Source: Aphanocapsa sp. GSE-SYN-MK-11-07L
Lineage (GTDB): Bacteria; Cyanobacteriota; Cyanobacteriia; Thermosynechococcales; Thermosynechococcaceae
Direction: 5' to 3'
NCBI GenBank assembly: GCA_019359715.1
Contig: JAHHGS010000124.1
Span: forward strand, 1 to 33,944
DNA: 33,944 bases
Part shown: positions 1,822-33,842 of the stretch, one piece after another
Layout: every line of letters begins with the position of its first letter
How positions within the stretch are numbered: the stretch's first letter is position 1
Notes under the pieces: model-generated
Seen by the model: the letters and a program-made list of their open reading frames with translations, nothing else
Databases searched by the model: none
Told to the model about the DNA's origin: nothing
Program-made: the position numbers and the translations under genes

Positions 1822-2293
1822 GGGGGTTAACTATGGACATCAAGGCAAAGGGATTTTGATTCATCTGATCACCGATGGCAATGGAATGCCCATGAGTGCT
1901 TGCACAACCCCGGCCAATGGAGATGAGCGTCAACAAGTATTACCCTTGTTAGACCGGATTAAAATTAGGACGGCTCCTGTGGGTAGACCCAAAAAACGCT
2001 TTAAGGTGATCGCAGCGGATAAAGGCTATGATGCCCGATGGCTGCGAGAAAAACTCCGCAAACGGGGAATACGAGGTCAGATCGCGAAGCGGCAACGGCG
2101 AGGCAACAAACCGCTAGGCAGACCGATTCAAATGTCCGTGCCACGGTTTCAGCAAGAGAGGTGTTTTGCTTGGCTCCAACGCAAGTATCGAAGATTGGTT
2201 GTTCGGTGGGAGCGACTTCCCTCCTGTTTCGATGCCTTTCTTCATCTATCTATCATTCACATCTGGCTCAATAAACTGATATTAGTGGGATAG
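1822..2293 (+). pseudogene. IS5-family transposase, C-terminal frame
   Basis: Continues from the frameshift near 1800. The first ATG-like start in the frame is at 1856. It contains HLITDGNGMPMSACTTPANGDE, then FKVIAADKGYDARWLRE with the second catalytic Asp (ADKGYD), and the C-terminal run MSVPRFQQERCFAWLQRKYRRL with the terminal Glu/Arg-Lys signature (YREK-like context) of IS4/IS5 DDE enzymes. It stops at TAG 2291-2293 inside the right inverted repeat, as is usual for these compact elements. The 107-codon remnant at 7003-7311 is a close relative. Confidence 0.82.
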
Positions 2294-2298
2294 GTTCA
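2281..2298 (-). repeat. Right terminal inverted repeat of IS5 element
   Basis: Perfect inverse of 1421-1438. The first 17 bases (2281-2297) recur identically at 7299-7315. Confidence 0.9.
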
Positions 2299-2364
2299 TT
2301 AGGTGCAACTTAGGAATTTGGTCTTGAAAGCTGATTTTTTGGCTCAAAATAACTTATCAATTTC

Positions 2365-2514
2365 TCAGCAAAAACTAAGCCGCTTGAAAAGTGATTCTGT
2401 GAAAAATGTTAGTGCTGCTCCCTTAGTGGTGTAGGAAACTTGAAGGGTGCGTAACATCAGTAGCTGACTTAAAGCCTCAGCATCTCTGAGTCGAGGGCGA
2501 GACAGGTCAGACAT
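2365..2514 (-). CDS. Small hypothetical ORF, 49 codons
   Basis: Minus-strand ATG at 2514 to TGA at 2365-2367, starting MSDLSRPRLRDAEALSQLLM and ending LFKRLSFC. It lies between the IS5 right end and the peptidase gene. No convincing Shine-Dalgarno sequence precedes it and I do not recognise the product. The regular amphipathic composition makes it look like a fragment of a real protein rather than random sequence, but this is weak evidence. The rest of 2299-2767 holds no other gene I can support, only the hairpin at 2642-2694. Confidence 0.25.
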   Translation of the reverse strand: MSDLSRPRLRDAEALSQLLMLRTLQVSYTTKGAALTFFTESLFKRLSFC

Positions 2515-2641
2515 AGGGTTGCTTGATGTTGAGGAACTTAAGTATCACATTGAATGCCCCTCTTCGCCATCCATGACGGATTATCAATCCCCTGATGGTA
2601 AATTGCTGACGACTTTTCTGCACCACTAAGGATTGCGAATT

Positions 2642-2694
2642 AATTAACCTGGAATATTTTTGGGGAAGTGCCGCAAAAATATTCCAGGTTAATT
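2642..2694. repeat. Perfect 21-bp inverted repeat with 11-nt loop
   Basis: Arms 2642-2662 and 2674-2694 are perfect inverse complements, with loop 2663-2673. The arms are A/T-rich (core CCTGGAATATTTTTG). The structure lies about 75 bp upstream of the C11 peptidase start. It could be a terminator for IS-derived transcripts, a cis-regulatory hairpin for the peptidase, or a miniature palindromic element. There is no U tract directly after either arm, which argues against a simple terminator. Confidence 0.85.
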
Positions 2695-2767
2695 TAATCC
2701 ATGACCCCAAGGGGTTTACCCTGACAACTGCTATTCTTTCTGACATATATTCTCTGGGGGAAACTCT

Positions 2768-5700
2768 ATGGACAGAGTAATTACGAATGATTTAGGCTTG
2801 CTGAGTGGTCAAACTACGCTTTCAAGCGGCTTGAGTCAGGGGGAGGAGATTCTTTACACTTTTCAAATTGGTCGTCAGGCTGGGTTTCAACATAGCGCCA
2901 GAATCACCTTTGATCATCTCAACGGGCAGGGGGATTTAGATTTATATCTGTTAGAAGCTGGATCGACCACACCGATCGCCCAATCCTCAACTAGTACGGA
3001 TAGGGAATCCATTCAATTTAACAATCTGGCAGCGGGCAGCTATACACTCCGGGTTATTGGCTATCAGGGTGTAACCGGCCAAAACCAAAGCGTGGCTGCA
3101 AATTCCTTCACCGTATCCGTTGCTGCCCCAGAACTAACGCCAATACCAGATACTGCTGGCAGCAGCTTTGCAACTGCAAAAGTGCTGGACGTTGCTACCA
3201 CCCGGTTTAACGGCTCTATTGATGTTGCCAATCAAACAGACTATTACCGCTTCAGTATGAGTGGTCTTGGCTTGAACTCCCATTACCTTAATACGCAGTA
3301 CGACCCTTCTGCTGGCACAGTTAACCTGCAACTCTTTGATGCTGCCCAGCAACCGATCGACCTTACCAATCGCCTGATCAACGTAGAACTTCCAGGTGAT
3401 CCTACGAAGTTTGTTGGGAACACCCAAATTAGCCTGGCGGGTTTAGCTGCTGGAGACTACTTTGTCACTGCTAGTAGTGCCAAGACGCTCAGCTACAAAC
3501 TGACGCTAGACGTGCCCCAAGTCACCCCCGATGCTTGGACAGTAATGACCTTCATAACTGCCTCTAACCTAGATCAAGCTGCCCCAGGCAACATTGAGCA
3601 AATGGAGGTTGTCCTCGATCAGGCACTCAACTCCGTGAATCTTTCTGTCCTCTGGGATCAAAGTTCAGTCCAGACATTATTCTTTCGTGACGGCAAAAAA
3701 GACCGAGATATTGTCCGCTACCCAACGCCCGGTCTGGCTGCATGGGGTGATGCTGGACAAGCCACACTGCGGGCAGGGCAAGCCAGTATTAAATTTTACC
3801 CGCAATCCAAAGGTAAAGATCCTGAGAGTAATGACCCCCGAATTGTCTCTCCCTTTACCCGATTAGGAGAAAAAGACACAGGAGATAGTGAATCCTTAAC
3901 TGACTTTGTACAATCGTCTGTCACCAATGCACCAGCCCAGAATTACGCTTTGGTGATGTGGGATCACGGCGGAGCTACAACTGGATTTAACCTTGACGAT
4001 CTAGATGTGGATGCCCAAGGGCAACGAATAAAGGAAACAAGGCTCACCACCTCAAAGTTGGTGAAGTCCCTAACCGACCTAAAAACCACAAACAGCATCA
4101 ACTTGAGCCTATTGGCATTTGATGAATGCCTCATGGCATCCACAGAAGTAGCTTACGAACTCCGCACCTTTACTCCGGTGATTGTGGCTTCGCAGGAGAC
4201 GATCTCAGGATCAGGTTACGACTACACTCAAGCATTTCAGGCGTTGATGGAAGCCAATCCCAGTGGTGTTACCAGCGCAGAGTTAGCAGAGTCCATTGTC
4301 ACAGGGTTCCAAGCTGTATATGGCCCTAAGGGGGAAAATCAAAAGAAGTCAAACACTCTATCAGCGATTGACACAGGTGAACTTCCAGGGCTGATTACCG
4401 CCATTCAAGGGTTTACGACAGCTACCAACGCTGCCACGAGTCAAGACTGGAGACTGATTGCTAGAGCTCGTTCCGCTACTAGAGGGTTTTACGACGATAG
4501 CCAGCGAGACTTAGGTTTCTTGATGCAGAACATTCAAGCCGAAACAGCTATCAGTGATCAGATTCGCACCGCCGCAGGAGAGGTAGTCGCTCAGCTTCAG
4601 CAAACCGTGTTTGACCAGACCGAAGCCTCGAAACGAACGACTCAAGGGCTACTCATTTTTCTACCCGAAAACACTAAAGCTTATCAGAACCAAAAAGATA
4701 ATTACATCACCAATCATAGTAATTTTGTCGATGCGACCCAATGGGACAAGTTTCTCGATGCGTTCTTCAAAAATACGGACACGACAGATACAAAAGATAG
4801 TGCCTTTGCCACAGCCACCCGTCCCACCGTGCCAGGAGACCCCTTAGATCCTAGTGGGCCATCATTCTATAACTTGCAAGCGGGAGGCTTGAATGTCCTG
4901 ACGGCGGATGCCTTCTTTGATGCTGTTGATTTTGAGGAAACAGAAGACCCGGATATTTATCCCTTTGCGATCGGGGCGACAGGAACCTTTCTCAATACCA
5001 TCGAACTATACTCTAGCAATCCTGATGCTACCTTCACCCTGAACCTATCGGATGACAGCAACAACTCACTGCGACAAATATCGGGCAAAGGCAACGTCAT
5101 CCTGAGTTTGCAAGACATTACAGCAGGAAGCTATGTCCTAAATGTATTGGCGGATCAAGATGTCTCAAATTATAGCCTCTATGTCAAAGCGCCCGGTTTC
5201 GACTCCAACCGCAAAACCTTTGTGGGCAACGATCAGTTTCAGTTCAATGGCTCCTTCCTGAAGGCAGCAGACGTTGACGAAAACGTTTTCTATACAGGGA
5301 ACCAACTTGTGGCTCCCACGGACGCTTGGTATGCCCAGGAAGATTGGTATACCTTGAGCCTACCCAGAACAGTTGACAGAGAGAATGAGCCCTTCGGAAC
5401 TCTGGCAATCTATTTAGCCGAAAGCAATCGTAGAGCTAGAGTTGATTTGTATGATAGCAATGGAAACCTGCGCGCCAGTAATCAAGGGTCAGGGAAGCTC
5501 AACATCACTTATGAACAATACTCTAACATCACTTACTACTTCAAGGTGTCTCGCTTAGAAGGTGATACTGCTCCCCTGGGCTATAGCTTTAGATTTGCCC
5601 CCTCAGAGAATACTCTTCCCAGGTTGAGCATCAGCAATGTAACCAATGACGGCCAAACCACTGGCTTGCTTGAGTGGGGCGGAAATCCAGAGTTTGCTGG

Positions 5701-7002: not shown

Positions 7003-7315
7003 AGACCCAAGAAACGTTTTAAGGTGCTGGCGGCGGACAAAGGCTACGACGCAAAGTGGCTTAGGCAAGCCTTGCGTAGACGGGGGACACGGGGTCAGAT
7101 TGACAAGCGCCGATATCAGGGGAAGAACCCATTAGGCAGGCCCATTAAGATGTCTGTGCCTCGATTTCAGCAAGAACGATGTTTTGCTTGGCTCCAACGC
7201 AAGTATCGGCGATTGGTGGTGCGTTGGGAGCGTTTGACAGACTGCTTTGATGCCTTTCTGCACCTCGCCATCATTCACATCTGGGTCAATAAACTTACAT
7301 TAGTGGGATAGGTTC
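7003..7315 (+). mobile_element. IS5-family remnant (3' third of a second copy)
   Basis: From AGACCCAAG at 7003 to the right inverted repeat at 7299-7315, this is a close relative of 1985-2297 in the complete IS5 copy. The 5' two thirds, including the left repeat and first catalytic Asp, are missing. The encoded tail RPKKRFKVLAADKGYD to NKLTLVG ends at TAG 7309-7311. Many codons differ between the copies, so they are diverged relatives, not a recent duplication. Sequence immediately right of the repeat (7316 onward) is the C-terminal part of the LOG-family gene. Confidence 0.88.
7299..7315 (-). repeat. Right terminal inverted repeat of IS5 remnant
   Basis: ATTAGTGGGATAGGTTC, identical to 2281-2297. 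It marks the exact junction with the LOG gene fragment. Confidence 0.88.
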
Positions 7316-17566: not shown

Positions 17567-18954
17567 TCAGCTCTCTGGCTGGCTGCCCAGGTTTTTAACT
17601 GTGAATAGTTGACCTTGCCCTGCGGGTTGCGAGGAATTTGGGCGATCGCCAACCAGCGCTTAGGCTGCTTGAACTTGCTCAGCCGGTCTTGGAGGGCTGA
17701 CGAGAGGTGCGAGGCAAACGCCGATCCAATCGGGACATAAATTGCCGTCACGACTTCTCCCCATTCTCGGTCAGGTAAACCGATTACACAGACATCCTCA
17801 ACTAGTCCTGTGGCTAGAATGGCGGCTTCTACTTCGGACGGAAACACATTTTCACCGCCGGTAATGATTTTTTGGCTACTGCGGCCGACAAGTTGTAAAT
17901 TGCCTTCATCATCAATCAAACCCAAATCATCAGTGGTGAAAGTTGGCTCTGTAAACACCTGAGGATAGTAACCCAGAGCTAAAGAAGTCGCCTGAATTTG
18001 AATTTGCCCGATTTGATTTGAACCAAGGGTGGCTCCCTCTGGGTTGAGAAGTTGAAGTTGAGCATGGGGAAGAACCTGCCCGCAACCTGCCATCCCAGCT
18101 AAAAAAGCCTCTGGCTTGAGAGTAGCGATTTGGGAAGCCGTTTCGGTCATGCCGTAGGTGGGTGACAAGCGAATTTGGTGTTGGCGAGCTTGGGCCAGCA
18201 GCTCTGCTCCAGCAGGAGCGCCCCCTAGCAGGACAAGCTCAAACCGGGCTAACTCGGCGATCGCCGCCGGAATTTGCAGCAGCCGTTGCAGTTGAGTCGG
18301 CACCAGCGAAAGCCAAAAATTTTCTAGCCGTAGATTGCCCGCAAGGGCTGAACCCGTTGCCAAGCGATCGCTAAGCTCTGAAAAGGGAGCGATCACTAAC
18401 TGTCCGCCCGTGGTGAAGGAGCGCAGCCACTGCATTAAGCCGCTGACATGGTAGAGCGGCAGAACGCAAACCGAATTGATTTGAGTGATTTGGAAATATT
18501 GCTGACAGGCTTGCACAGAAGCCTGCAAGGTCTGCCAGGTGTGAATCGCAAACTTAATCTGCCCAGAGGAGCCACCGGTTGGAATCATGATCCAACCCGG
18601 CTGAGCAGGATTAGTCGGATCTGGTGAGGTAAGCATTTGTGAACTGGCGATTGTCGCAACTGGCAACGTGCCCCAAATCAAGTTCGGTCGAATTAGCGGC
18701 AAAACCTGCTGCCACTCGTCGTTTTGCCAATTGGGATTGCCTAGAAAGACTGGGCATTCAGCCCCGCAGGCCGCCAAAAAGCCTGCCAAGAAACAGACAG
18801 GATCAGCCTCGGTGAGCAAAATTCTGGGTAGATTTCCCCGCTGATAGGGGGTAAGTTCTGACTGTCGCTGAGCCAGTAAACAATTAAATTGGCTGCTACC
18901 GACTAGCCACGGGTCAGCTTGGCGCTGGCGGGCAATCTCTAAAGGCGATGCCAT
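17563..18954 (-). CDS. menE: 2-succinylbenzoate-CoA ligase
   Basis: 463 residues of the ANL adenylate-forming superfamily. Phosphate-binding loop PTGGSSGQIK is at 125-134, then LSPTYGMTETASQIATL (A5-like motif), the hinge GLIDDEGNLQLVGRSSQKIITGGENVFPSEVE and the C-terminal catalytic Lys in IPRNPQGKVNYSQL. It activates o-succinylbenzoate with ATP and CoA for naphthoquinone ring closure. In cyanobacteria this leads to phylloquinone, the A1 acceptor of photosystem I. The gene overlaps the 3' end of menC by 16 bp on the same strand, so the two are translationally linked. The ATP/AMP-ligase family alone would be ambiguous, and the menC partner decides the call. Confidence 0.93.
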   Translation of the reverse strand: MASPLEIARQRQADPWLVGSSQFNCLLAQRQSELTPYQRGNLPRILLTEADPVCFLAGFLAACGAECPVFLGNPNWQNDEWQQVLPLIRPNLIWGTLPVATIASSQMLTSPDPTNPAQPGWIMIPTGGSSGQIKFAIHTWQTLQASVQACQQYFQITQINSVCVLPLYHVSGLMQWLRSFTTGGQLVIAPFSELSDRLATGSALAGNLRLENFWLSLVPTQLQRLLQIPAAIAELARFELVLLGGAPAGAELLAQARQHQIRLSPTYGMTETASQIATLKPEAFLAGMAGCGQVLPHAQLQLLNPEGATLGSNQIGQIQIQATSLALGYYPQVFTEPTFTTDDLGLIDDEGNLQLVGRSSQKIITGGENVFPSEVEAAILATGLVEDVCVIGLPDREWGEVVTAIYVPIGSAFASHLSSALQDRLSKFKQPKRWLAIAQIPRNPQGKVNYSQLKTWAASQRAD

Positions 18955-20117
18955 AGGGCTTCAAAATCATCAATTGTGGCTGGCTGAGGTGTGCTGTCAG
19001 ATTCTAACCAGTGATTGACGCCAAAGCCTAATGCCCGGTCTGGATTGCCCAATTCTACGGCTAGTCCGAGGGCTGCTTGCCGCCCGATCGCCCCTTCAAA
19101 CACGGATGAAAAGACCAAATCAAGCTTGTGCTGCTGACAAAATTGCCGCAGCCGCTGGGGTGAACCGGCGATCGCTGGTTTAATCACAAACACACCTGGC
19201 CAGCCCCGCTGGTGACAAGCAGCAAGCTGATCAATCGTTGCGACAGACTCATCTAAGCCGATCGGAGTGGGAAATCGACGACTCAACGCCAGCATGGCAG
19301 TAAACTCGCTTACGGGCAAAGGCTGCTCTAAAAATTCGACTATGGTTGGGTCGCAAACCTGTAGCCAGAGATTTGCCGATCGCCAGTCTAGCCCGCCATT
19401 CGCGTCCAGCCGCAGTTTGACTCCGGCTGGCAACTGGGCCACCAGGCGTTGATAGAGCTTAATTTCAGCTTCTGGTGGGTCAACGCCAATTTTCCACTTA
19501 AAGGTGCGATCGCCCTGCTGATGAGGAATTTGCCAAGCGGTCAGGGCGGCTGGCCCAGTTGGCAAAAGTACACTCATTGGGGCAGTGAAATGATCAGACT
19601 TCCTGCGGAGATAGTCTTTTGCCCCCCAACCCCCCAATTCTGGGGGGCTTTGAATGTTTTTAAAGTCCCCCAGAATTGGGGGATTTAGGGGGCTGTCCGA
19701 GATTTGGGCAAGCGGCGTAATTCCCCAAACTGGATCGGTTAACATCTGCCAGGCTGATTCAAACCCAAACTGGCAGGCGGGTAAGTGGTTCGGAATCGCC
19801 AAAATTTGCGCCAGCGTAATTTCAGTCTGGCGATCGCAAAAGTTGAGGGCTTGGGACAAGGTTTCGGAGCCAAACCAATCTAAGGGAGCAATTTCGCCAA
19901 ACCCCATTCGCCCAACAGCATCTTGCAAACGAATGATAATCGCCTCTCGAACCCTCCAGACACCATGCCGAGTTTTGAGGAAAGTCTTAAATTGGCGATC
20001 GCAAGTCCGAAATTTTAACCTAAAGCTTTGTAAGGCTGGATCTGAACTATTCACAGTTGGAACGTCCTGAAATTTGGCATGATTTTGGGATGGCTCAACG
20101 CCGACGTTCTCGATCAT
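18939..20117 (-). CDS. menC: o-Succinylbenzoate synthase with an in-frame repeat insertion
   Basis: Up to 392 residues from ATG 20117. A GTG at 20054 (Val22), preceded by AGGA, is an alternative nearer the conserved start (FRLKFRTCDRQFKTFLKTRHGVWRVREAI). It belongs to the enolase superfamily: Lys207/Lys209 (FKWKIG), Asp238 (RLDANGG), Glu264 (EFLEQPLP), Asp289 (GLDES) and Lys313 (FVIKPA) match the acid-base and metal ligands of MenC, which dehydrates SHCHC to o-succinylbenzoate. Residues about 142-166 (NPPILGDFKN to SPPELGGWG) are encoded by a palindromic repeat (19621-19693) absent from normal MenC, which makes the protein unusually long. The frame is kept, and the insertion lies before the barrel segment LLPTGPAAL, so activity is probably retained. 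Confidence 0.93.
   Translation of the reverse strand: MIENVGVEPSQNHAKFQDVPTVNSSDPALQSFRLKFRTCDRQFKTFLKTRHGVWRVREAIIIRLQDAVGRMGFGEIAPLDWFGSETLSQALNFCDRQTEITLAQILAIPNHLPACQFGFESAWQMLTDPVWGITPLAQISDSPLNPPILGDFKNIQSPPELGGWGAKDYLRRKSDHFTAPMSVLLPTGPAALTAWQIPHQQGDRTFKWKIGVDPPEAEIKLYQRLVAQLPAGVKLRLDANGGLDWRSANLWLQVCDPTIVEFLEQPLPVSEFTAMLALSRRFPTPIGLDESVATIDQLAACHQRGWPGVFVIKPAIAGSPQRLRQFCQQHKLDLVFSSVFEGAIGRQAALGLAVELGNPDRALGFGVNHWLESDSTPQPATIDDFEALWHRL
19621..19693. repeat. Dispersed-type palindromic repeat inside menC
   Basis: Left arm 19621-19651 and right arm 19662-19693 are near-perfect inverse complements (core CCCCCAATTCTGGGGG), with loop 19652-19661. On the minus strand it codes for NPPILGDF and SPPELGGWG, the peptide typically seen where this cyanobacterial repeat is read through (recalled pattern). 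It sits in frame with menC. Confidence 0.85.
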
Positions 20118-29978: not shown

Positions 29979-30050
29979 GCCGATGTAGCTCAGTGGTAGA
30001 GCACTCGATTCGTAATCGAGCGGCCGTGAGTTCAAATCTCATCATCGGCT
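29979..30050 (+). tRNA. tRNA-Thr (anticodon CGT)
   Basis: 72 nt with a full cloverleaf: acceptor GCCGATG (29979-29985) with CATCGGC (30043-30049), D stem GCTC/GAGC, anticodon stem CTCGA/TCGAG with loop TTCGTAA and anticodon CGT at 30011-30013, T arm GTGAG/CTCAT with TTCAAAT loop, discriminator T30050. No CCA is encoded. The integrase gene begins 174 bp downstream, so the 3' half of this gene is the probable attachment site. Confidence 0.95.
30026..30050 (+). other. Probable attL core (3' end of tRNA-Thr)
   Basis: Tyrosine integrases of tRNA-targeted elements usually recombine within the T arm and acceptor 3' end and leave the tRNA intact. Position next to the integrase supports this. The partner copy (attR) should lie beyond the right end of the window and was not found within it. 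Confidence 0.45.
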
Positions 30051-31734: not shown

Positions 31735-33842
31735 CCCTGCATCCTCCTGATTAGTCGTAAATCACTCTGCTGATACTGCTGGGTAATTGCCCAGGTCTTG
31801 CCCTTCACCTCAACCCATCCAGGCTTGTCTCGCAAAAATCCAATCACTTCAACCTGTCTACCGGCAAAATAGCCCGTCAGTATTTCTACCAAGTCCCCTA
31901 CCTTCAGCGGCATCAATGCTGCTGTTGATAGATCGCCTGTGTGACAAATAGGATGATCAAGTGCTTTTTTTCTTTGCTCTGTAAGGCTTTGATGCACTTG
32001 ATCATTTTTGAGTGGATCATGATCAAGTGCTTTTTTGTCTTGCTGTGACTGGGTTTGAAGCACTTGATCATCGCGAGGTAGGTCACACAGGTAAACTTTT
32101 TTGCGCGTTACCCCACCTTTAGCCCCCTCGATCGGAATCTTGCGAGTTTCTTCACTGATATGGCCTTGCCGCCACAAGCGTTTGACTAATCGGCGGATGT
32201 GAGCGTGGCTGCTGTTGAATTGCCCTGCCAGTTCTTCAATTTCAAACGGGACGGTAGGAAACTGCTGAAAGTGTTCGAGCAACCGTGCTTCCAAGTTGCC
32301 CTGACCATTCGGTGTGCAATGGTGTTCACCGTGGTAAACCACCACGCACTCATCATGGTCGAAGCTGATCGCAAACTTCCCCGAACAGCGGCTACGGGAT
32401 TTCTCAATGCTCCAGATCCGCTGATCTGCGGGCAGGCTATCTTCGGATTTGGGATGCCGCAGATACCAAACTTCACTCACGTTGTCAGGGATTGCGGTTG
32501 TGCCTCTGGACTCCCCCAGTTTGTTGGTATGGTGCAAAATCAAGAACGTGCAGCCATAGGTGTTGGCGACGTTCCGTAGGTCGTAGATGCAGGAACCATA
32601 GTTGGTGTCCTTCTCATCTAGTTCACTAGCCCGGTTAGCAGCCGTGAAGGAGTCGATAATCACCAGCATGGGGCGCTCTTGCTCAATCCAGCGAGTCAAC
32701 TGGGGCATCTGGGAGAACTGCCACTCGGTTTCGACCTGTACCAGTCCCCGCTCAAATCGGTCGTAATTGGCATCTCGCAGAGAGTCGGAGAAATCGACAT
32801 CGGGTTCATCGGTCTGGATGATTAGCACTTTGCCTTGAGTGGTGCGGAATCCATTCCAGGGTTGGCCAGAGGCGATCGCATAGGCCAGGTCGTAACTAAG
32901 GCGACTTTTTCCGGTACCGCCATCAGCAATTAGGGCGATCGTGCTGCCTCTGGGAATTTTGCCTGCGATAATCCACTCGCGTTTTTCAGGAGCTTTGGCT
33001 AAGAAATCTACGACATCAATAGGGCTGAAGACGTGGGCGCACTCCAAACGAGTTTGATGGATTTTGCGGAGCTGGGCTGTCGAAAGCTCGGCTTGTTTTG
33101 CCAGCAGGTTAAGTTCCCAGAGTTGACGGGCGGTGTCTTCAATTAGCAGAATTTGATCAATCCGGTTCAGGCATTGTTCATAGTTGAGTCTAGATTTTCG
33201 CGACGGTTGGGCTAGTTCGATGTCTATTGGTTGACTAGCGGTTCTGGCGGCGGTACGGATTGCTTCCACCGTCAAGCCTGCATTCAGGGCATCGGAGATG
33301 TCCCAACCTTTTGGGAGAGATTTTTCCGAACAAGGCACCTGGGCAATCCAACCGCGTTCGCCCAAAACACGCGCTAGTTTTTCTGCGCCTTGCTGTCCTG
33401 GTTCATCCCGGTCGTAGAAGATGAAGACTTGACCGGGCAATCGCTGAAGTTGTTCGGGGCAGGGAATAACGTTGCAACCACAGGTAAAGGTAGCGATCGC
33501 AATATCGGTAACATCTCGCATCGCCCAACCCAACAGGATTGCATCCCACTCTCCTTCGCACAGATAGGTTTGCTTTGCCTGGTCTGGCTGATGGGTAAAG
33601 TAAACCATTGCTGGAACCCCTTTTTGAGTCCAGGATGGATTACTATTCCAGGGTTCAAGTCTCAACTTCTGATAGAAGTTCAAGCCCGACTCATCTGCCA
33701 GAATCGGAATCGAAACCCCGGTTGTTCCATTCCGGTTGACTAGACCCAGGCGATAGTGACAGGCAGTTTCAGGGCTGATCCCCCGTTGGTCTAACCATTG
33801 CCGCGCCCATTGGCTTTCTGCTGAAAGACAGAACTTCGGCAC
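31731..33842 (-). CDS. Toprim/RecA-like primase-helicase protein
   Basis: 703 residues from GTG 33842, no convincing Shine-Dalgarno. Domains: N-terminal Toprim (TYLCEGEWDAILLG with Glu96, and IFYDRDEPGQQGAEKL with Asp144/Asp146), a RepA/RecA-like ATPase (Walker A ADGGTGKSRLSYDLA at 307-320, Walker B PMLVIIDSF, sensor FLILHHTNK), a winged-helix region (about 515-565) and a C-terminal SH3-like segment (LKVGDLVEILTGYFAGRQVEVIG). The CHC2 zinc finger seen in DnaG-like primases is absent at the N-terminus. Residues 591-634 are a tandem 22-residue repeat (QVxQ, KKALDH) from a DNA repeat. It likely drives priming or replication of the element after excision. Confidence 0.82.
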   Translation of the reverse strand: MPKFCLSAESQWARQWLDQRGISPETACHYRLGLVNRNGTTGVSIPILADESGLNFYQKLRLEPWNSNPSWTQKGVPAMVYFTHQPDQAKQTYLCEGEWDAILLGWAMRDVTDIAIATFTCGCNVIPCPEQLQRLPGQVFIFYDRDEPGQQGAEKLARVLGERGWIAQVPCSEKSLPKGWDISDALNAGLTVEAIRTAARTASQPIDIELAQPSRKSRLNYEQCLNRIDQILLIEDTARQLWELNLLAKQAELSTAQLRKIHQTRLECAHVFSPIDVVDFLAKAPEKREWIIAGKIPRGSTIALIADGGTGKSRLSYDLAYAIASGQPWNGFRTTQGKVLIIQTDEPDVDFSDSLRDANYDRFERGLVQVETEWQFSQMPQLTRWIEQERPMLVIIDSFTAANRASELDEKDTNYGSCIYDLRNVANTYGCTFLILHHTNKLGESRGTTAIPDNVSEVWYLRHPKSEDSLPADQRIWSIEKSRSRCSGKFAISFDHDECVVVYHGEHHCTPNGQGNLEARLLEHFQQFPTVPFEIEELAGQFNSSHAHIRRLVKRLWRQGHISEETRKIPIEGAKGGVTRKKVYLCDLPRDDQVLQTQSQQDKKALDHDPLKNDQVHQSLTEQRKKALDHPICHTGDLSTAALMPLKVGDLVEILTGYFAGRQVEVIGFLRDKPGWVEVKGKTWAITQQYQQSDLRLIRRMQG
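31954..32070. repeat. Iteron-like repeat array inside the primase gene
   Basis: The 11-mer TGATCAAGTGC occurs four times in alternating orientation: 31954-31964 (+), 31994-32004 (-), 32020-32030 (+), 32060-32070 (-), spacings 29, 15 and 29 bp. It is a tandem repeat of a 66-bp unit, each unit holding one inverted pair. The alternation gives two hairpins, and the pattern resembles iterons or operator pairs of plasmid replication systems. It lies in the coding sequence for residues 591-634. Confidence 0.85.

Follow-up and report, generated by a model that had tools for sequence, protein, structure and literature searches.

The vitamin-K gene menC of the window (the whole 33,944-nt stretch of DNA that was analysed) contains an in-frame insert, which likely originated when a MITE entered the interdomain linker of the gene and was tolerated there, so that MenC could still be made. 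The core of this MITE is a REP-dimer-like palindrome, and its outer ends are of the IS5 type. The features concerned are the following:

18939..20117, minus strand: menC (o-succinylbenzoate synthase, MenC), 392 aa, an uninterrupted ORF matched by family models.
19597..19719, minus strand: whole insert, best estimate, 123 nt, corresponding to residues 134-174 (41 residues); exact ends inferred, with one TA/CA of the putative target duplication counted.
19621..19693, plus strand: palindromic, REP-dimer-like core, 73 nt, from the inverted-repeat listing and genome-wide repeat matches.
19622..19654, plus strand: left palindrome arm, 33 nt (inverted repeat I1).
19659..19691, plus strand: right palindrome arm, 33 nt (inverted repeat I1).
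19694..19719, plus strand: right outer end of the MITE, 26 nt, a degenerate TAGACCTCTTGC-type terminal repeat (matrix score 21.7 bits).
19595..19606, plus strand: putative, weakly supported left outer end, CAGACTTCCTGC (matrix score 6.6 bits).

The palindrome that the initial annotation had reported in menC is real and lies in frame within the uninterrupted 392-aa ORF. I1 is the first inverted repeat in the list for the window, and its arms are 85% complementary with a spacer of 4 nt. The predicted folding energy of the RNA spanning positions 19590-19725 is -65.6 kcal/mol, as compared to -43.0 ± 4.0 kcal/mol for shuffled sequences, none of which (0/200) folded as well. An Rfam scan detected no known RNA family at the palindrome, its sole match being a tRNA at 29979-30050. 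The proposed identity of the palindrome as a cyanobacterial repeat was also borne out by the data, because a 111-nt query from the menC region gave at least 46 matches in the same genome, and the arm pattern gave 27 matches, while its reversed control gave none. The arm pattern was matched without a mismatch at 19665-19692, and likewise at nine other sites of the genome. The merged matches define at least 34 sites, which is a lower bound, as 40 of the 65 candidates were scored for the 111-nt query. A typical site is an inverted dimer consisting of GCCCCCCAACCCCCCAATTCTGGGGGGCTTTGA, a short spacer and AAGTCCCCCAGAATTGGGGGATTTAGGGGGC; many of the sites are such dimers, and several have one clear arm only. 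The arm is also present in 118 of the 291 sampled genomes of the class (55 of 130 genera), with up to 255 matches per genome.

The short palindromic unit, which is present in many copies both singly and as an inverted dimer, agrees with the description of REPs. Unlike GTAG/CGTC REPs, the menC-type arms lack a terminal GTAG or CGTC tag, ending instead with GCCCCC/GGGGGC, and no neighbouring RAYT gene was found. The arm was not present in the flanks retrieved for any of the five PF01797 (Y1 transposase) loci of the genome; the lone weak match near these loci proved on reading to be an unrelated GC-rich sequence. Membership in the REPIN/RAYT system was rejected for this reason. As a separate observation, the left arm of several cores is split by another palindromic repeat of the GAGCTTCGACGTGAGCGCTCAGCCGAAC type (C134:12595-12907 and C141:4623-4784 of this genome, G000, and also in C121 and C136), and an interruption of this type is also found in frame in folC and cobN.

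The initial annotation had limited the element to positions 19621-19693 and had estimated that it added about 25 residues. This range covers the core only, and the insert extends to outer ends, over about 123 nt (19597-19719), which corresponds to the 41 residues (134-174) that fall between consensus columns in an alignment of 79 MenC sequences. When the 123 nt are taken out of menC, the frame remains open with a 15-residue linker, WGI-DHFTAPMSV, a length that falls within the range seen in relatives lacking inserts. The 123-nt insert and seven related paired copies (108-313 nt) are of MITE size and contain no transposase gene. To locate the outer ends, a matrix was built from the right ends of eight other copies, with menC left out, and the whole window was scored on both strands. 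The right outer end at 19694-19719 obtained the top score in the window (21.7 bits, with the runner-up at 12.0), while the left outer end ranked 60th in the window, although its score was the highest among the flanking positions 19560-19606. Hence, the terminal inverted repeats, which are clear in family copies, are strong at the right end of the menC insert and weak at the left. After the core, a longer outer end is found at eight further sites; read from outside, it is of the TAGACCTCTTGCATRAAT type. The dinucleotides flanking the menC insert, CA on the left and TA on the right, do not form a clean target duplication. In menC the core is close to the consensus and the outer ends have diverged, a combination for which a single recent insertion does not simply account. 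The insert is best read as a MITE of about 123 nt that carries a REP-dimer-like core, with its exact ends inferred.

The TAGACCTCTTGC-type outer repeat also terminates a 921-bp insertion sequence of the same genome (C6:11783-12703), and a second pair of ends with identical spacing is located at C80:16358-17278. The two ORFs of the 921-bp element match HTH_Tnp_4 and DDE_Tnp_4, and we take it to be IS5-like. The outer ends of several copies match this insertion sequence, as would be expected of IS5-type MITEs; this sharing of ends holds for the repeat family and is only approximate for the menC copy. The 921-bp element is likely the source of transposase for the MITE, which would be non-autonomous and probably moved by the enzyme supplied in trans. 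In addition, several contigs (e.g., C10, C79, C85, and C106) stop about 107 nt from a TAGACCTCTTGC end, which suggests that the 921-bp element breaks the assembly at these contig ends.

It could alternatively be considered that the 73-nt core alone is mobile, as a REPIN-like inverted REP dimer, and that it entered menC without outer ends, the likeness of the flanks being due to an older resident MITE or to coincidence. We regard this as rather doubtful. The core may move alone, because some in-gene cores have no recognisable outer ends: those in the chlH-like, urea carboxylase and hydantoinase genes lack TAGACC-type ends, with outer-end scores below -18 bits. Cores are also centred in at least two further outer palindromes, of the ggagttacgcagttgag and tatagcaatcctaa types, and conservation is far better in the core than in the outer ends. 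On the other hand, menC has an unmistakable right outer end, the 41 extra residues require about 123 nt rather than 73, and no REP-like arm lies beside the Y1 transposase loci, all of which argue against this reading.

The MITE would have inserted into the menC linker between the capping domain and the barrel, and the placement of the insert before the first barrel strand, with the frame open and the conserved residues unbroken, agrees with what had initially been annotated. The insert consists of whole codons and has no stop in the frame used, and therefore MenC could still be made. It is open in only one of the six frames, which is the one that menC uses. Six of the seven paired full copies lack an open frame altogether, and the lengths of two of the seven would be frame-preserving. 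In eight other copies, reading in the menC frame gives TAA or TGA at codon 5 of the outer end, and the corresponding codon is CAA in menC, CAA in cobN, and CGA in soxA; this comparison was chosen post hoc and is partly circular, because in-gene copies are recognised by their open frames. What it does show is that MenC would have been cut short by a typical copy. In the AlphaFold model the pLDDT is 45-62 in the ten-residue blocks from 131 to 180 and above 90 in most other blocks, and the best structural match of this model is 2OZT (TM 0.88 by target length). This suggests that the insert, which includes the peptide stretch SPLNPPILGDFK, is probably a disordered 41-residue loop between the capping domain and the barrel, and that the fold is intact.

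The loop would most likely be functionally neutral and passively tolerated in a disordered linker, and menC may survive because this linker tolerates very different lengths. The fact that the only open frame is the one used, together with the very stable RNA hairpin, could also suggest that the insert has been domesticated, so that the loop serves MenC or the mRNA hairpin tunes the expression of menC and menE. This is improbable, as any surviving copy would be expected to have an open frame, the loop is predicted to be disordered, and the linker varies widely in length and content among relatives.

The assignment of the gene as menC is supported by two equivalog models, NCBIfam NF002739 (o-succinylbenzoate synthase), to which the ORF matched with 420 bits against a cut-off of 259, and TIGR01927, which was also above its cut-off, as well as by the Pfam domains PF13378 and PF21508. 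Residues K207, K209, D238, E264, D289, and K313 are invariant among 42 aligned sequences, and we assume, after E. coli OSBS, that they are the catalytic and metal-binding residues; thus, both the family match and the conserved metal and lysine residues of MenC are present. No other MenC was matched in the genome (completeness 99.48%), and the end of menC is overlapped by an ORF that is presumably menE-like. The possibility that menC is a pseudogene with a frame open by chance has nothing for it beyond the insertion itself, and it is very improbable in view of the 392-aa frame, the score to the family model, the preserved invariant residues, the single copy, and the overlapping menE-like ORF. 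The earlier description of menC as an essential photosynthesis gene is not supported, because phylloquinone is not essential for Synechocystis under photoautotrophic conditions, according to the accessible text of a review (PMC7133116).

The comparison with relatives, which the initial annotation had proposed as a check, showed that the segment is absent from all 27 other full-length MenC proteins aligned from related genomes (L036 and L038 were left out as fragments), and therefore it is not an ancestral loop. In the structure of Thermosynechococcus MenC (2OZT) the linker has 10 residues (99-108) versus 53 (127-179) here, and in relatives without large inserts it has mostly 13-18 residues. 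The ancestral-loop reading, which had been named as the one that would overturn the initial annotation, was rejected on the basis of the 27 relatives and the short linker of 2OZT. The relatives searched included no congener genome in which an empty site could have been observed. Although the linker is also long in other cyanobacteria, with 39 residues in L010 and 57 in L110, it is extremely improbable that a low-complexity loop of MenC, ancestral or convergent, accounts for the segment without any mobile element, because those long linkers differ in sequence and are in many cases heptanucleotide arrays, copies of the core are present at 34 or more sites of the genome, and the aligned relatives of the same family have short linkers.

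The alignment of 79 MenC proteins (85 records minus L036, L038, L154, L155, L157, and L158) showed at least 8 extra residues at this linker in 21 proteins, which is not a count of independent events, because the genomes are related and many belong to Nostocales. Elsewhere inside MenC, with the ends aside, extras of at least 8 residues were found in three cases only (two at 96-97 and one at 231-232). At the DNA level the long linkers contain G-rich heptamers in L010, L105, L111, and L138, CAATGCC arrays in L108 and L111, and a 12-nt inverted repeat in L110; in this survey 6 of the 85 records had no anchor. Judged from these sequences, the MenC linker appears to be a recurrent landing site, often for other repeats. 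Different repeat families have been taken up by this single linker across cyanobacterial lineages, which allows a side-by-side comparison of insertions at this position.

The search for the same repeat inside other genes, which had also been proposed initially, revealed six further enzymes with the core in frame, so that seven conserved enzymes of the genome carry it: menC, a second chlH, urea carboxylase, a hydantoinase/5-oxoprolinase-type protein, soxA, folC, and cobN. Hence, the insertion is not the rare event that it was thought to be, given these six enzymes and the enlarged MenC linker in 21 of 79 proteins. The alignment with a solved relative breaks off at the element and resumes beyond it in five of the six enzymes other than MenC, with the following interrupted regions:

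ChlH-like protein: residues 210-237.
Urea carboxylase: residues 496-545.
Hydantoinase: residues 296-350.
SoxA: residues 624-715.
CobN: residues 481-555.

In folC the alignment with the solved structure stops ahead of the element, and the family model spans both sides. The genome has two BchH/ChlH-like genes (C21:973-4893 and C84:122-3865), of which that in C21 scores better and the lower-scoring copy has the element. Among the in-gene copies, the core is read on either strand and in several frames. Four further ORF overlaps involve a flavoprotein N-terminus, the idi2 and aroH frames, in which the element precedes the family match, and one 109-aa ORF. The notion that such repeats are usually intergenic stands for this genome, where 23 of the 34 sites found overlap no ORF of at least 100 aa (the annotation of the 27 sites outside conserved enzymes consisted of ORF overlap and family scans), but intragenic in-frame REPs are described in the accessible part of a published study (PMC3733652).

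Of 10 exact arms here, 3 were in frame, and in two genomes rich in the arm the count was 2 of 60 (Fisher p ~0.02). These 60 loci were only the earliest among 255 and 136 matches, many of them are located on short contigs, and the criterion was set post hoc. For these reasons, an unusual abundance of in-frame copies in this genome was not relied on. One of the two in-frame arms among the 60 is an in-frame insertion in cobB of another cyanobacterial genome (L175:846-2213, G287), and the other matched no family. In soxA (L067, G000:C118, frame 1831-5280) a 30-residue tandem duplication, in which REQCIQAEVNAVRQQVGLIDVGTLGKLELR occurs twice, was observed shortly after the element.

In-frame palindromic elements are already known, and the menC case adds to this kind, because both in-frame REPs and Rickettsia palindromic elements (RPEs) have been published. 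RPEs are described, in the available text, as small mobile palindromes that have entered numerous conserved genes of a single genome in frame (PMC10969869), which by description is similar to the present case. They are about 150 bp long, are found in Rickettsia, and each has an ORF for a conserved peptide (PMC10969869, same text), whereas the core here is read in several frames and on both strands. The GTAG/CGTC REPs occur as singles and inverted dimers, and dimers or grouped repeats encode 20-30 residues within ORFs of several species, as far as the accessible part of that study describes (PMC3733652); in their palindromic units, single and inverted dimer arrangement, and coding within ORFs, the elements analysed here resemble these intragenic REPs. 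The same text reports that GTAG-15 REP dimers of Anabaena variabilis sit inside longer palindromes (PMC3733652). In Anabaena sp. 90, 15 MITEs within ORFs led to predicted pseudogenes, according to the part of the article available (PMC3542288), in contrast to menC, the ORF of which stays open. The Nostoc heptanucleotide repeats GGGGA(C/T)T, in the excerpted description (PMC4692102), form tandem arrays and are under-represented in coding regions; similar G-rich heptamers occupy the same MenC linker in other cyanobacteria, while the menC repeat is a palindrome. A search of the literature on in-frame palindromes or MITEs in cyanobacteria, with subscription papers mostly outside its scope, found no title on the menC repeat.

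Viewed together with the other enzymes, the probable insertion of the MITE into menC offers a clear case outside Rickettsia, open to testing, in which several enzymes of a single genome have gained protein sequence from mobile palindromes. It is possible, and we propose it tentatively, that permissive linkers, the MenC interdomain linker foremost, are recurrent sinks for the in-frame entry of unrelated repeat families in cyanobacteria, and that a coding-compatible form of the MITE, with the usual in-frame TAA/TGA changed to a sense codon, spread here into several metabolic enzymes, from which new protein segments would continue to arise outside Rickettsia.

Other repeats were also observed in the window. 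Two 53-nt direct copies, 66 nt apart and 83% alike, were found at 31953-32071, each starting and ending as ATGATCAAGTGC...GCACTTGATCAT, i.e., as a small palindrome. A hairpin at 2637-2699, with 29-nt arms that are 90% complementary and a 5-nt spacer, could be either a terminator or a further palindromic repeat of small size. The arms of a perfect 19-nt inverted repeat are located at 1420-1438 and 2281-2299, with 842 nt between them, and the adjoining 300-nt stretch (1985-2284) recurs at 7003-7302 with 76% identity.
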